Source: an uncultured Acidobacteriota bacterium (GTDB taxonomy: Bacteria > Acidobacteriota > CAIWXX01). Taken from it: DNA of 37,488 bases. The notes under the pieces were generated by a model. The model saw only the letters and a list, made by a program, of their open reading frames with translations. It had not been told where the DNA came from and did not search any database. Position numbers and translations under genes: made by a program. This document shows positions 3,875-32,578 of the stretch, one piece after another. Numbering within the stretch: the stretch's first letter is position 1; each line of letters opens with the position of its first letter. Location of the stretch: the NCBI GenBank assembly GCA_903916735.1, contig CAIWXX010000110.1, positions 1 to 37,488 of the forward strand, given 5' to 3'.

Positions 3875-6103
3875 CTACTTGATTGTGAACGGCACCGAGT
3901 TGCTCTTGACTCCTTTCACCATCACGAAGACGTTGACGGTCGATTTCGGTTTCAGCTTCTTGGGGATGTTGATCTTAATTGTGGTTTTTGTTGACGTGAG
4001 GATTTTCGCGTTGCGCCCGCCAAAATTCACTCTGACGTCCTTCTTGTTCGAAGAAAAATTGTTCCCATGGATCGTCGCGGAACTGCCGGGTTTGTGGGAT
4101 TTGTTGGAAATGCTCGAAATGAACGGCAGAGCTCCACCGCCGCTCGTCACAAAAACACTGACGTCGTCCGTATTGGAGAGAGATCCATCACTGACAGTCA
4201 GACGGAAGATCAGCGTTCCGGCAGTCGACGGTGCGATAAAATGCGGCGTCGCCGTTGTCGCCCCAACGAGAGAGGCCGATGTTCCGGAGATTTGTTGCCA
4301 ATTGAAGCCGAGGACGTCTCCATCCTGATCCGAGCTCTTTGTCCCATCCAAAATCACGTTTGACGTTGCCGTGACGGTCTGATTGTCCCCTGCTTCGGCC
4401 ACCGGCGCATGGTGGGAGCCGCCGCCTGTGGAAACGGTGATTGTCACCTGGTCACTATTTGAAAGCGTCGCATCACTGACGGTCAAACGAAAAACCAGAG
4501 TCGCCGGAGCTGCTGGAGCCGTAAAAGACGGAGCCACCGTCTTGGCTCCCGCGAGGCTAACCGCCGGGCCTTGAACCTGTTGCCAGCTATAGGTGATCGG
4601 ATGACCGTCCGGATCATAGCTGCCTCCGCCGTTGAGCGCCACATGCGAAGAAACGAGGACTCCCTGATCGGATCCGGCTTCAGCGACAGGCGCATGGTTT
4701 CCGGTGCTATCCAAAGGATAGGGATTTTGAAAGTAGGCTTCACCCGCCATTCTGAGATAGCCACCGTCATCATCGGCCACGGTGCTTGTATGATTGTTGC
4801 AAATTGTACCGCCACCCGAAATGCCATCGGTTGTGCAGGCCGGCGTATTGTTCGTGACGCCATCTCCGCGGCCATCCCACGGCACCGTGCTGCCGTCATT
4901 CCCGCATCCAAATTGCAGGCCGATGATGCCGACATTCACGAGCTCCGGAATATGTTCAAAGAAATATTCGGCGCAGTTGTCCTGATAGTGCCCCCATGAA
5001 TTATTCATGGTGCTGAAATATTGATTCCCGATCGGTATCTGCCAAATGATCGCCGGCTTTCCGGTGGTTGAGTAGACGGCTTGCATATAGGTTTCCCACT
5101 GGTGGAAATGCGGAAGGGCAACATTATTGCGATCCCAGAATGCGTTCTGGTCTCCATAGATGTATTTATAGAAGCCGGCGTCCCGATCACTCACATCGTT
5201 GAATATGAGATCGTAACGTGAAACGCCTGATTGAACCTGAGCGACACCGCACTTGTTGAGGAATTCCCCAGCCATCCGGCCTTTCGCCGCCACATCAAGT
5301 CCCGGATCGGTATTGGATCCCACGTCATACATCGTGGACCAGTTGCTGAGATGGAGTGCCATGAGGACATTGGGGGCATACAGATCGCGTATATGAAGCA
5401 GCGCCAGGTGGTACCCGACAAATGTATTAGGAAATCCTGCGGCCTCGGCCACTCCTGAACTCGCCACCGCCGCCTTCAGCAGCGCCGGATCGTTGCCTTG
5501 TCCAGAACAGAATCCAAAACAGGCGCCGCCATTATTCAGGACTGCCTGTTCGGCATAGCCGGTCAAATCGCCCTCAATATGCACGATCGCCGTTTTGCCA
5601 AACCCCTTAATGCCGTCATAGGTGCCGGGGCCGAGTCTCTTCATGAGCAATATGAAATCTCGGAAATATGCCTGCATGACGGATGTGGAATTCAGGTTGG
5701 CGAGATCGCGGTTGTTTTCCGCACAACCATCGCATGGCCCGGTGCTCTGGAGGACTTGGTAATATGAGAACGTCGGTATGTACCCATGTTGGTCCGCACC
5801 CTGGCAATAGTAGGTGACAAATTGCCCGTTATCGTTCCACGTGGCCCATCCACATCCATTGCAGGTATTCGCGCCACCGCAGAGATACTGATAAGCGTAG
5901 TCCCATGGAATACCTGTCTGAGGCATCCAGCCATAGAGGCCGTCATTATCCGGCTGTGCGGCGAGGCCGATGCCGAAATGCCGCGGCAGACCATTCGGAA
6001 CGGTGACGGCTCCTGCGCTTATCGCAGATCCGAGGATGAGCAGTCCGAGCATGCCTAATCGGGTTAGGCATAAGAGCCTTTTCTGAAACACTTGCCTTTG
6101 CAT
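3875..6103 (-). CDS. Secreted TIM-barrel glycosidase-like protein with PKD-PKD-IPT tail
   Basis: An exported protein of about 742 residues. Residues 1-33 are a signal peptide. Residues ~34-465 resemble a family of secreted, aromatic-rich, glycoside-hydrolase-like proteins. Recognisable stretches include GIPWDYAYQYL near the start, GYIPTFSYYQVLQS, an acidic strand end IVHIEGDLTGYAEQA, and NDVSDRDAGFYKYIYGD. Catalytic carboxylates and substrate are not established. Two PKD/K319-type Ig domains follow (~470-560 and ~565-655, each with an APVAEAG opening and DPDG- or DQDG-type motif), then an IPT/TIG-like domain (~660-743). The start at 6103 is chosen over the GTG one codon upstream because AAGGGG lies 7 bases before it. 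The neighbouring protease gene has the same tail. A perfect CRP-type site lies upstream. The role is inferred as extracellular polymer degradation. Confidence 0.8.
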   Translation of the reverse strand: MQRQVFQKRLLCLTRLGMLGLLILGSAISAGAVTVPNGLPRHFGIGLAAQPDNDGLYGWMPQTGIPWDYAYQYLCGGANTCNGCGWATWNDNGQFVTYYCQGADQHGYIPTFSYYQVLQSTGPCDGCAENNRDLANLNSTSVMQAYFRDFILLMKRLGPGTYDGIKGFGKTAIVHIEGDLTGYAEQAVLNNGGACFGFCSGQGNDPALLKAAVASSGVAEAAGFPNTFVGYHLALLHIRDLYAPNVLMALHLSNWSTMYDVGSNTDPGLDVAAKGRMAGEFLNKCGVAQVQSGVSRYDLIFNDVSDRDAGFYKYIYGDQNAFWDRNNVALPHFHQWETYMQAVYSTTGKPAIIWQIPIGNQYFSTMNNSWGHYQDNCAEYFFEHIPELVNVGIIGLQFGCGNDGSTVPWDGRGDGVTNNTPACTTDGISGGGTICNNHTSTVADDDGGYLRMAGEAYFQNPYPLDSTGNHAPVAEAGSDQGVLVSSHVALNGGGSYDPDGHPITYSWQQVQGPAVSLAGAKTVAPSFTAPAAPATLVFRLTVSDATLSNSDQVTITVSTGGGSHHAPVAEAGDNQTVTATSNVILDGTKSSDQDGDVLGFNWQQISGTSASLVGATTATPHFIAPSTAGTLIFRLTVSDGSLSNTDDVSVFVTSGGGALPFISSISNKSHKPGSSATIHGNNFSSNKKDVRVNFGGRNAKILTSTKTTIKINIPKKLKPKSTVNVFVMVKGVKSNSVPFTIK

Positions 6104-6142
6104 CACTTCGCCCCTTTCAATGAATGGGATTGCGACGACACG

Positions 6143-6186
6143 ATTTTTGACCAGAGCGATATCCCTGTACTGTGACGGCTGTCACA
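6143..6186 (-). promoter_or_regulatory. CRP-type site and weak promoter for the 3875-6103 gene
   Basis: Bases 6171-6186 read TGTGA-CGGCTG-TCACA, a perfect match to the TGTGA-N6-TCACA consensus of CRP; the inner six-base arms TGTGAC/GTCACA are fully symmetric. The site centre (6178.5) lies about 75 bases upstream of the ATG. A weak -10, AAAAAT (minus 6148-6143), begins 30.5 bases from the centre, one off the class II geometry. The regulator is inferred from the consensus only. Confidence 0.6.
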
Positions 6187-6210
6187 ATCGGGTGGTTGAA
6201 TGGATCTGAT

Positions 6211-8319
6211 CTAGTTCAAGGTAAAGGGCACAATGTTGCTGCTATTACCATTCACACTAACTGATACATCGACAGTCGCACGCCTGCTTAATCGCTGTGG
6301 AATTGTGATCTTAATGGAATCCGGTTTCGCTTTGCTGATTTTCGCTCGTTGCCCGCCGAATCTCACTTCAACTATTTTTGAATTGCTTGAGAAGCCATTC
6401 CCGTAGATTGTCGCCGCGCCGCCGGGTTTTCCAGTTTTGCTCGTAATGAGCGAAATGGAAGGCGTATCCTCGCCGCTGCCGATCGCGACCTGGGCATCAT
6501 CGCTGCTGATGAGTGAACCGTCGCTGACGATGAGCCGGAACGCGAGAACGGCACTCACGGTTGGAGCCCAAAAGGTCGGAAAAGCCGTGGTCGCAGAGAA
6601 TAGCTCGACGGTCGGGCCTGATATCTGAACCCATTGATAGCTGATCGCATTGTTATCCGGATCGTAACTCCATGCACCATTCAGCTTCACGAAACTGCCG
6701 GGCGAGACGGATTGGTCCGGGCCGGCATCCGCAACGGGAGCTCGATTGTGATCTCCGCCATTGCTCGTGACGGCTATCGAGACGTCATCGGTGCCGGCCA
6801 AGGATCCGTCACTGACGATGAGGCGGAAGACGAGTGTTCCTGGTGATGAGGGAGCGACGAAAGAAGGTTTCGCTGTGGTATTTCCGCTCAGTGCCACGGC
6901 TATCCCGGACATCTGCTGCCAATTATAGGTGATCGGCTGACCGTCCATGTCGTTGCTGCCTGAACCATCCAGGGACACATGTGAAGTGACAACGACACTC
7001 TTGTCGGCTCCGGCGTTTGCAGTCGGTGCGTGATTCGTTGATCCGCTGCCCGTCCAGCCGATATGTGAGGGAGTATAGCTGCAGAGCCCTGCCGCTATCG
7101 AACCGTCTCGCATGATGCAGGAGACACTATTCTGATTGCAGGATTGGCAATTTCCATCAATTGAATTCGGCCGAGGGCAGTTCCCATAGGTCCCACAACT
7201 CGTGCATCCTCCATACCCGGCCTGGTAGTATTCGTCGTCCGCCCAAAAAATGTGAGCCGTCTCATGCGCCAGAACCTGCGCGAAATTGCCGGCGCCCCAG
7301 CCATCGTTGCAGTAGCAGAGCTGGGTGTAAGGGCCTCCGAGATAGGCATATGCAAAGTAGCCGTCTTTGAACGTGTGTTCGGACCCTGGGTTGTAAGCAA
7401 CGAAAATAGAATATGACCAATCGGCGCCGGTGGAGGATCTCACCGATGAATTATAGGAATTAACCGTTGAGGCTCCAATATTTTGCATGATTCGATTGAT
7501 CCAGAGGCTGTCTTCACTCGTCGTATGCAGGACAGGTTCATATGGAACCTGGCACACGGGATCCGATGCTGATTTGATGATGATGTTGAAAGTGACACCG
7601 GCACCATACTCGGGCGCTCGGGACGACCACCAGCTCAGCCCGCTAACGGCTCTGTTATATGTGTCGGCCTGATGTTGCAGCGTCCAGGTATAGGTATTCG
7701 GGTCTGTGCCGGCGCCATTGCTCTCCACGAAAAACATCGTGACGGCCACGACACCTGTCATTGATTCGCTATTTCCGCATCCGGCTCTATCCAGAGGCGG
7801 CAGTTGCCCCATGAGAGAGCCGGTAGGGATTTTTTCAAATGGGTCTGCTCCGGCGCGTGGCTGCACAAAAGCGTCGAGAGTGAGCGGTTCGCCTTGACGA
7901 TCCGCCGTGATAAGCATTTCATCGATCGCTGATCCTGACTTGATCCAATTGAATGCCGTCGCCCCCTGTTTCGATTCCAGCGATCTGAAACTGTCAATCG
8001 GTACGATCTGACGTTCGACGGCAGCCACCCCCGCGTGTCCGCAGATCCTGGATTCGATCGATGGTTTGATCCAGCCCAGTAATACGTCCTTTGATGCAAT
8101 GATTGCGACCCTGCCACCTGCGGATTCGATGGAATCGCGGGCCGCCACGGGATTTGCCCCTGGGTGAAGCCTGATCAGGCAATAGTCATCCATCCATGAT
8201 GTCATCTCGCGATAGCCGGCCGGATCCAGCGCCATGACATTCGTGCCGCAGAAGAGAAACCCGATGAATATGAGCCCCATATTTTTCATACTGATGATGC
8301 TCTTGAAAAAATTCCACAT
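6211..8319 (-). CDS. Secreted metzincin-like metalloprotease with PKD-PKD-IPT tail
   Basis: An exported protein of about 702 residues. The start at 8319 (MWNFFKSI...) has GAGGAA at 6 bases, and the hydrophobic signal peptide follows; the frame upstream of it has no Shine-Dalgarno support. An N-terminal stretch of ~100 residues (DYCLIRLHPGANPVAARDSI) resembles a propeptide/inhibitor fold. The catalytic signature is HETAH (H352, E353, H356) followed closely by a DDEY acidic cluster. About 70 residues on, CIMR in a Cys-rich segment is placed like a metzincin Met-turn. Two PKD-type Ig domains and a C-terminal IPT/TIG-like domain complete it, homologous to the tail of the adjacent glycosidase-like protein. 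Cysteine pairs (CTSC, CQSC) suggest disulfides and export to an oxidising space. Substrate unknown; assigned as zinc endopeptidase on motif evidence. Confidence 0.82.
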   Translation of the reverse strand: MWNFFKSIISMKNMGLIFIGFLFCGTNVMALDPAGYREMTSWMDDYCLIRLHPGANPVAARDSIESAGGRVAIIASKDVLLGWIKPSIESRICGHAGVAAVERQIVPIDSFRSLESKQGATAFNWIKSGSAIDEMLITADRQGEPLTLDAFVQPRAGADPFEKIPTGSLMGQLPPLDRAGCGNSESMTGVVAVTMFFVESNGAGTDPNTYTWTLQHQADTYNRAVSGLSWWSSRAPEYGAGVTFNIIIKSASDPVCQVPYEPVLHTTSEDSLWINRIMQNIGASTVNSYNSSVRSSTGADWSYSIFVAYNPGSEHTFKDGYFAYAYLGGPYTQLCYCNDGWGAGNFAQVLAHETAHIFWADDEYYQAGYGGCTSCGTYGNCPRPNSIDGNCQSCNQNSVSCIMRDGSIAAGLCSYTPSHIGWTGSGSTNHAPTANAGADKSVVVTSHVSLDGSGSNDMDGQPITYNWQQMSGIAVALSGNTTAKPSFVAPSSPGTLVFRLIVSDGSLAGTDDVSIAVTSNGGDHNRAPVADAGPDQSVSPGSFVKLNGAWSYDPDNNAISYQWVQISGPTVELFSATTAFPTFWAPTVSAVLAFRLIVSDGSLISSDDAQVAIGSGEDTPSISLITSKTGKPGGAATIYGNGFSSNSKIVEVRFGGQRAKISKAKPDSIKITIPQRLSRRATVDVSVSVNGNSSNIVPFTLN

Positions 8320-8343
8320 GACGATTCCTCTGTTCTTCGCCCT

Positions 8344-8386
8344 ATTATCGAATAGGCGGGGACAGGATTCTGTGAGAATGATCACG
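8344..8386 (-). promoter_or_regulatory. Candidate class II CRP-dependent promoter of the protease gene
   Basis: Bases 8371-8386 read TGTGA-GAATGA-TCACG, nine of ten consensus CRP positions. On the minus strand a -10, GATAAT, lies at 8349-8344. With transcription starting near 8337 the site centre (8378.5) falls at -41.5, the exact class II activation position of E. coli CRP. The leader would be about 18 bases and contains the Shine-Dalgarno sequence. The -10 is embedded in the palindrome CCTATT-ATCG-AATAGG (8341-8356). Confidence 0.6.
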
Positions 8387-8413
8387 TTTTCATAAAACGC
8401 CGTGGATTGTGCT

Positions 8414-8433
8414 GAGGCTAGTATAATAGCCTC
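8414..8433 (+). promoter_or_regulatory. -10 element inside a 20-bp palindrome, start of the ABC/RuvX operon
   Basis: GAGGCTA (8414-8420) and TAGCCTC (8427-8433) are perfect inverted arms around GTATAA. Together they contain a consensus TATAAT at 8422-8427. No good -35 is seen (GCCGTG at 17-base spacing). Transcription would start at about 8434, the first base of the GTG start codon, so the mRNA would be leaderless; no Shine-Dalgarno is present. The opposite strand reads TATACT across the same centre and could fire divergently. The palindrome could also be an operator. Confidence 0.55.
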
Positions 8434-10116
8434 GTGTTGAATGTTGTCGATCTCAACTTCGCTTATGCGGGAGCAAACCGGCGAGCCCTTCACGACATTT
8501 CTATTCATACGAAGACTGGACAGCACCTTCTGATCATGGGGCCGACGGGCGCCGGCAAGACGACTCTTTGTTGTGCCTTGCGCGGATTACTTGGAACATT
8601 CATCGATGGCGAACTGACAGGTGAGATCGAATTAGTCGGTGAGAAAATTTTCCCGCCGGCGAAGGCTTCCGAACAAAGCGATCCTTTTCCGGTCGCCAGA
8701 CTCGCCCGGATTGTTGGACTCGTTTTCCAGGATTTCGAGCGGCAGCTCTTTTCCACGACTGTGGCACGAGAGGTTGCCTTTGGTCCGGAGAATCTGAATA
8801 TTCACCCTACTGAAATCAGGCGGCGGGTCGACTGGGCACTTGCGATCGTCGGACTGACTGGACTGGAAGATCGAAATCCACAGACGCTTTCGGGAGGCGA
8901 AAAGCAACGTCTCGCCATCGCCTCGATTCTCGCTCTCCACCCGCGGATTCTCCTCCTCGATGAACCAACGACGGATCTTGATCCTGTCGGCAAGGAACAG
9001 ATTTTTTCGCTGAGGAGAGAGATTGCGGAACAGGTTGAGATGCTGGTGATGGTCGAGCATGAAATCGAGCCGGCGCTTGCATTCGAACAAATTCTCATTC
9101 TCACTGACGGCCGGATCGCTGGTGAAGGAAGCCCGCAGCTGCTGCTGGATTGGCGGCTCTTCGAAAAAAATTCGATTCAACCATATGAACCGGCGGTGCT
9201 CGCCGCTGAAGCCGGCCTCGGCAGCTACGACGAATGCGCCCTCCGGCCTCTTCTTTCGGGGCTATCCAACTCGGCCGCTCTTCACTCACCGGTGGCGCCG
9301 CCGCGAGAAGCGATCAGGTTTGTCGGCATCACTGCAGGCTATGAAGGAAAGAAAATTATCGAGGATTTTTCGGTCACCATAGGCGAGGGCGAGTTCGTCG
9401 CGATCCTGGGTCCGAACGGCTCCGGAAAAACGACTGTCGCCAAGATCATGGCCGGCCTTCACCAGCCATCATCGGGTCGTGTCGAAATATTCGGGAAGGA
9501 TTTCTCAACGGGCAGATCCAATCCAGCCGCGACTAAGGTGGGCTATGTTTTTCAGAACCCCGATCATCAGATTTTTGCATCCACGATCGCTGAAGAAATT
9601 GCGTTTGGCCCTCGCAACGTGGGCATGACGGATGACGAGGTCGCTCGTCGAGTCAAGGATGTCGTCCGAACGGTCGGCTTGGTGGGTTTGGAATCGGCTG
9701 ATCCTTTTACACTGCCGAAAGGATATCGGCAAATGGTGGCGGTGGCTTCAGTCATGGCCATGCAGCCCCGAATATTGATTCTCGATGAGCCAACGACAGG
9801 CCTTGACCTGGCGGGTCAGCGGGCCATTCTGAAGGTGCTGAACGAACTGCATTCCTCCGGTCATACGATCATCATCATCACACACTCGATGCGAATCGCA
9901 CTCGAACACGCGGTGCGCACCATTGTGATGAAAAATGGTAGGATCATTCTGGATGGACTGACGAAGGATGTTTTTTATGGAGGTGATCTCGCACAGGCGG
10001 CCTTGCGACCGCCGCCGATTGTTGAACTGGGAAAAATGGCTGGTATTCAGGTCCGGTCCATCTCGGAGCTGATCGACATCATGAAGCATCAGGGGAGGCT
10101 GAAAGGACGATCGTGA
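8434..10116 (+). CDS. Fused double-ATPase ABC protein, ECF/CbiO type
   Basis: 560 residues with two ABC ATPase domains in one chain, resembling the paired EcfA1/EcfA2 (CbiO) ATPases of energy-coupling-factor transporters for vitamins and metal ions. Domain 1 has Walker A GPTGAGKTT (36-44), Q-loop VFQDFERQLFS, signature LSGGE (152-156), Walker B ending D176-E177, and an H-loop histidine in VEHE. Domain 2 has Walker A GPNGSGKTT (326-334), VFQNPDHQIF, Walker B LILDEPTTGLD and THSM, but its signature is altered to LPKGYRQM (427-434). One composite site may therefore be weakened. No transmembrane (EcfT) or substrate-binding (EcfS) gene is adjacent, so the substrate is unknown. The GTG start is placed by a consensus -10 just upstream. 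The last codon overlaps the next gene by four bases (GTGA). Confidence 0.88.
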   Translation: MLNVVDLNFAYAGANRRALHDISIHTKTGQHLLIMGPTGAGKTTLCCALRGLLGTFIDGELTGEIELVGEKIFPPAKASEQSDPFPVARLARIVGLVFQDFERQLFSTTVAREVAFGPENLNIHPTEIRRRVDWALAIVGLTGLEDRNPQTLSGGEKQRLAIASILALHPRILLLDEPTTDLDPVGKEQIFSLRREIAEQVEMLVMVEHEIEPALAFEQILILTDGRIAGEGSPQLLLDWRLFEKNSIQPYEPAVLAAEAGLGSYDECALRPLLSGLSNSAALHSPVAPPREAIRFVGITAGYEGKKIIEDFSVTIGEGEFVAILGPNGSGKTTVAKIMAGLHQPSSGRVEIFGKDFSTGRSNPAATKVGYVFQNPDHQIFASTIAEEIAFGPRNVGMTDDEVARRVKDVVRTVGLVGLESADPFTLPKGYRQMVAVASVMAMQPRILILDEPTTGLDLAGQRAILKVLNELHSSGHTIIIITHSMRIALEHAVRTIVMKNGRIILDGLTKDVFYGGDLAQAALRPPPIVELGKMAGIQVRSISELIDIMKHQGRLKGRS

Positions 10117-32519: not shown

Positions 32520-32530
32520 TGTGATGAAAT

Positions 32531-32578
32531 GCACAATATTTGGTATTGACATACCCCCGACGACGCCATATATTGTGC
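32531..32578 (+). promoter_or_regulatory. Pair of NrdR boxes over the nrdJ promoter
   Basis: Box 1 (32531-32546, GCACAATATTTGGTAT) and box 2 (32563-32578, ACGCCATATATTGTGC) match the NrdR consensus ACACWATATATWGTGT at about 12 and 13 of 16 positions. Their starts are 32 bp apart, three helical turns, the spacing known for NrdR sites. Box 1 touches the -35 and box 2 covers the -10, so binding should repress. The outer halves GCACAATAT and ATATTGTGC are exact inverted copies. Confidence 0.8.
32546..32574 (+). promoter_or_regulatory. Near-consensus sigma-70 promoter of nrdJ
   Basis: TTGACA (32546-32551), 17 bases, TATATT (32569-32574): a perfect -35 and a five-of-six -10. Transcription should start near 32581, giving a leader of about 150 bases. 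Confidence 0.8.

Follow-up and report, generated by a model that had tools for sequence, protein, structure and literature searches.

Predicted class II operators of a CRP-family activator upstream of secreted-protein genes in an uncultured Acidobacteriota bacterium

Here, we address why, in an uncultured Acidobacteriota bacterium, each of two secreted-protein genes is preceded by a palindrome resembling the binding site of Escherichia coli CRP, whose TGTGA-type motif and class II promoters have been described (PMC12360894). The two genes lie in the window, i.e., the whole stretch of 37,488 nucleotides analysed, on contig C110 of a metagenome-assembled genome of 5.37 Mb that is 98.7% complete. 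We suggest that both palindromes are operators of one CRP-family activator, the product of a gene on contig C78, which is predicted to act at class II promoters of secreted-protein genes, and we regard this explanation as a whole as highly probable. The features concerned are as follows.

3875..6103, minus strand: gene for a secreted protein with an N-terminal domain without a family match, PKD-like domains and a C-terminal TIG domain (the 6103 gene; "glycosidase-like" in the original prediction)
6143..6148, minus strand: AAAAAT, weak −10 candidate for the 6103 gene at offset 33, with a predicted start at 6136
6171-6186: perfect CRP-type palindrome TGTGA-CGGCTG-TCACA (TGTGACGGCTGTCACA), 10/10, no mismatches
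6211..8319, minus strand: gene for a secreted putative metalloprotease with a signal peptide, a HETAHIFWADDE motif, two PKD-like domains and a C-terminal TIG domain
8337, minus strand: position at which transcription of the protease gene is predicted, from geometry, to start
8349-8344, minus strand: −10 hexamer GATAAT, centred 32 bp from the centre of the 8371 site
8371-8386: CRP-type palindrome TGTGA-GAATGA-TCACG (TGTGAGAATGATCACG), 9/10, one mismatch
8434..10116, plus strand: divergent gene for an ECF-type transporter ATPase with two ABC domains, which shares the gap containing the 8371 site

Both palindromes of the original prediction are confirmed, with 10 of 10 and 9 of 10 matching positions, respectively. 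The 6171 site lies in the gap from 6104 to 6210, between the protease stop codon and the ATG at 6103, and its centre is 75.5 bp upstream of this ATG. The 8371 site lies in the gap from 8320 to 8433, which separates the protease ATG at 8319 from the ORF of the divergent ATPase; the site centre is 59.5 bp upstream of the protease ATG. Both downstream genes start with a signal peptide. The protease remains putative because its assignment follows from an HExxH motif spotted by eye, and its catalytic part has no match in Pfam or PDB. The label "glycosidase" for the 6103 gene was not borne out: the N-terminal domain of its product matches nothing in Pfam, NCBIfam or PDB, a four-member profile searched against PDB and Pfam also came back blank, and a structural model made without an alignment was unusable (mean pLDDT 33).

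Matches with up to two mismatches number 11 in the window against a mean of 13.8 in shuffled sequences, i.e., they are no more frequent than expected by chance, and the case therefore rests on genome-wide evidence. Several lines of such evidence point to a regulon. First, the genome contains 14 perfect sites compared with one for a reversed-pattern control and with ∼6 expected from half-site densities (P = 0.004), a modest overall excess. Second, 11 of these 14 sites are intergenic while non-coding DNA makes up only ∼19% of the sequence examined (P ∼2e-6); the other three lie inside genes for a hydrogenase, RpoB and a transport permease. Third, a genome of the sister genus (G001) has 19 perfect sites, mostly intergenic and far above the reversed control, and in a survey of relatives these two genomes ranked at the top, with 0 to 9 sites in others of the phylum. 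Fourth, the spacer is biased towards TGTGAT....ATCACA, so that the conserved pattern extends beyond the one searched for; the spacer of the 6171 site has C..G, which differs from the T..A common in its own genome and is common in the sister genus. The palindromes as chance matches would be in keeping with the count in the window and with perfect sites such as those inside the hydrogenase gene and rpoB; this reading is nonetheless very unlikely, given the intergenic bias together with the signal-peptide bias, the exact −10 offset and the conserved orthologue site described below.

With one mismatch allowed, the count in this genome rises to 162 sites compared with 42 for the control. Because most of the one-mismatch sites listed fall in coding sequence, where they are probably due to chance, we rejected them in bulk as a list of regulon members. 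For the same reason, what speaks for the 8371 site is its location together with its −10 hexamer and its gene.

We next consider the genes downstream of the perfect sites, using gene and signal-peptide calls made with simple home-made scripts and rules. Across both genomes, 23 intergenic perfect sites have a gene within ∼250 bp. By a strict rule, 14 of these 23 genes encode a signal peptide compared with 65 of 217 controls, i.e., remaining genes preceded by a gap (P = 0.004); by a looser rule, the numbers are 17 of 23 and 72 of 217 (P = 0.0002). The sites thus concentrate before genes for secreted products, the outcome that the original prediction proposed to look for by a genome scan with TGTGA-N6-TCACA, with 14 to 17 positives among 23 against a background of 30-33%. 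Targets with known domains in this genome include an M12B-like metalloprotease with a TIG tail, a Sortilin/BNR protein and an HYR-domain protein, while those in the sister genus include a glucose/sorbosone dehydrogenase, an M43-like peptidase, a beta-helix protein, a DUF4331 protein and Ig-repeat proteins. Non-secreted targets are also found, with one site before a gene for a metallo-beta-lactamase-fold protein and one before mraZ. The latter is a perfect site 142 bp upstream of the gene (L029 5168-5183, C120:55167); mraZ usually heads the division and cell-wall cluster.

The −10 element occupies −12 to −7, and a distance of 32 bp between site centre and hexamer centre therefore corresponds to a site at −41.5, the class II position. 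For the protease gene, GATAAT lies at exactly this distance and a start at 8337 places the centre of the 8371 site at −41.5, in agreement with the original prediction. For the 6103 gene, the hexamer at offset 32 is CAAAAA, a poor −10, and AAAAAT lies one base further, so that the earlier description of a fit within one base to a poor −10 also stands. At the level of the regulon, we assembled 28 sites from the two genomes, comprising perfect sites and selected one-mismatch sites before genes, picked regardless of any −10, and scored the hexamer at each offset from the site centre for likeness to a −10. Strong hexamers occur at offset 32 for 9 of the 28 sites, the only offset that stands out (the next best has 3); in 2000 shuffles, the maximum at any offset was 6. 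On the opposite side of the same sites, no strong hexamer is found at offset 32, and the aligned sites show no enrichment at offset 52, the class I geometry. The protease GATAAT is among the nine hexamers and the 6171 promoter is not. Class II architecture, with a site near −41.5 and a −10 at a fixed distance, is accordingly seen at the 8371 site and across the regulon, and is weak at the 6171 site. The window contains a third 9/10 site, missing from the list in the original prediction, at 32520-32535, with an outer-membrane-like gene on one side and a class II ribonucleotide reductase gene on the other; it has no −10 at the class II offset of 32 in either direction.

Because the gap around the 8371 site is common to two genes, this site might serve mainly the divergent ATPase, or repress one of the two genes, rather than activate the protease gene. 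The ATPase side has a TATAAT of its own on the plus strand (8422-8427), 46 bp from the site centre. This offset, however, is that of neither a class II (32) nor a class I (52) promoter, whereas on the protease side a hexamer occurs at the offset enriched in the regulon. We consider such a role for the 8371 site unlikely and activation of the protease gene the better supported assignment.

The 6171 site, which has the weaker promoter, is conserved in another genus. Among 297 genomes of the phylum, matches to the N-terminal domain of the 6103 protein turned up in just 4. One of these is the genome of the sister genus, in which the orthologue (L040 4131-6155; 41-49% identity) lies in a 4.1-kb locus with a single site at up to two mismatches; this site is perfect, is located just upstream of the orthologue and has TAGACT at offset 32. 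The orthologue lacks the TIG tail and its upstream neighbour is unrelated to that in the window, which argues that the site tracks the promoter of the gene and neither the tail nor the neighbour. These observations also bear on a reading in which the protease transcript ends in an RNA hairpin formed by the 6171 palindrome, which would then act as a terminator or stabiliser and not as an operator. The 6171 sequence can fold, with a 4-base loop, and lies ∼32 nt past the protease stop codon; however, no terminator-like site and no T run were found, and in the sister genus, where the stem would be shorter and part of the site coincides with the end of an unrelated upstream gene, both the site and the class II −10 are kept. 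A hairpin function in place of an operator is therefore quite improbable in our view.

The original prediction took the same motif upstream of two genes with the same tail modules as a sign of common control. Part of this argument holds: among TIG-domain genes with readable upstream DNA, 6 of 22 are preceded by a site with no more than one mismatch compared with 0 of 38 other genes in the same loci (P = 0.0015), and with the two window genes left out, the TIG genes still score 4 of 20 (P = 0.011). By contrast, the tail-less orthologue in the sister genus keeps its site. The TIG tail marks members of the regulon only in part and does not define it. Conservation extends to a pair of TIG lipoprotein genes (L088 and L037), which have retained 9/10 sites in both genomes. 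A perfect site also precedes each of three genes with one common C-terminal tail, L031 in this genome and L036 and L044 in the sister genus. This tail of ∼165 amino acids, with roughly 50-70% identity over parts, is carried by otherwise different secreted proteins in two genera.

Which protein might recognise these sites? Only two proteins in this genome pass the HTH_Crp cut-off. The candidate regulator is a CRP-family protein of ∼227-228 amino acids encoded outside the window on contig C78; its recognition helix reads SRETVSR, whereas that of the other protein reads PETLSR. The C78 protein belongs to the CRP/FNR superfamily, matching PF00027 (91.6 bits) and PF13545 (56.5 bits) in one frame, and falls below the cut-off of NCBIfam NF008732, "cAMP-activated global transcriptional regulator CRP" (136 vs 266 bits). 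Its best sequence relatives in the PDB include the CRP proteins of Mycobacterium tuberculosis and E. coli, and the CRP of the same-family genome G001 is 72% identical to it. Aligned with E. coli CRP, it keeps R180, E181 and R185, with S in place of G184; it also keeps G71, E72, R82 and S83 of the phosphate cassette as well as R123, and carries A and N, respectively, in place of the adenine contacts T127 and S128. The R180/E181/R185 helix and the intergenic enrichment of TGTGA-N6-TCACA both place it with the TGTGA-binding subgroup. The compatible recognition helix anticipated by the original prediction is thus present, and the CRP-type regulon that it proposed is supported by the excess of sites, the intergenic and signal-peptide biases, the −10 offset and this helix. 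Upstream of the crp operon, no site with up to two mismatches was found in the stretches examined, which therefore provide no evidence of autoregulation.

Based on these findings, we infer the following mechanism. A dimer of the C78 protein would bind TGTGA-N6-TCACA through its SRETVSR helix and, positioned at −41.5, would contact RNA polymerase in the class II manner, in that way switching on genes for secreted multi-domain proteins, including those at 6211-8319 and 3875-6103. A small ligand would control the regulator.

The original prediction named cAMP as the signal. However, searches of this 98.7% complete genome turned up neither a class I nor a class III adenylate cyclase, and this absence, together with the A and N residues at positions 127 and 128, makes the cAMP step the weak part of that reading; cAMP from a class I or III cyclase is unlikely here. 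The word "catabolic" in the original prediction likewise found no support. The genome encodes six proteins with a cNMP-binding domain (on C10, C25, C78 and C164), the C78 regulator included. That this genus lacks the class III cyclases of its sister genus and keeps the receptor, its sites and the five other cNMP-binding proteins leads us to propose, tentatively, that a CRP-like protein runs a class II secretome regulon without cAMP, answering another nucleotide or none. The same regulon may be an ordinary cAMP-CRP system supplied by a class IV or otherwise unrecognised cyclase, a reading that we also hold to be possible at somewhat less than even chance: the phosphate-binding cassette of the C78 protein is intact, the number of cNMP-binding proteins is in keeping with cAMP signalling and a search for class III cyclases gave six matches in the sister genus, whereas the missing class I and III cyclases and the substitutions of T127 and S128 speak against it. 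One of the cNMP-binding domains is fused, judged by eye, to a mechanosensitive-channel-like protein.

The palindrome, the DNA-contact residues and the −41.5 geometry are the same as in the class II promoters of E. coli CRP. The present system differs from E. coli CRP in the changed T127/S128, in the class I/III cyclases, of which none was found, in AR2 residues that are only partly kept and in targets that are mostly secreted proteins. CRP-like control of extracellular enzymes is already known from Xanthomonas campestris, in which the CRP-like protein Clp controls extracellular-enzyme genes through TGTGA-type boxes; Clp is inhibited by c-di-GMP and belongs to a different phylum (PMC3528676). 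The M. tuberculosis CRP (Rv3676), among the best PDB matches of the C78 protein, has an N aligned with S128; it comes from a different phylum and presumably has different targets. The CRP family varies in cAMP dependence (PMC4005916), and the Deinococcus CRP-family protein DdrI binds DNA without cAMP (PMC11253593). DdrI, compared with the C78 protein by family alone, is a precedent for cAMP-free DNA binding. With Clp responding to another ligand and DdrI binding without cAMP, a cAMP-free system in this bacterium would not be unprecedented. In open-licence papers, we found no CRP regulon described in Acidobacteriota and no description of the present one, which appears to be undescribed. It is a regulon of secreted-protein genes with base-exact predicted starts, in a phylum whose uncultured members are abundant in the environment, and it prompts the question of what signal a CRP responds to where no class I/III cyclase can be recognised in the genome. 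Its promoter logic also allows secreted proteins without an assigned function to be grouped by common control.

Two further observations concern transcripts near these sites. On contig C55, a perfect site (L024 5711-5726, C55:81710) has CATAAT at the class II offset and faces ∼480 bp without a convincing gene. Rfam gave no RNA family near this site, nor in the window; the predicted RNA folds well (z −2.0), and the transcript is possibly a CRP-controlled small RNA. On the ATPase side of the 8371 gap, a perfect 7-bp inverted repeat, GAGGCTA-GTATAA-TAGCCTC (8414-8433), covers the TATAAT. Because the ATPase ORF begins at 8434, approximately at the expected transcription start, this gene may be leaderless and may have its own operator.
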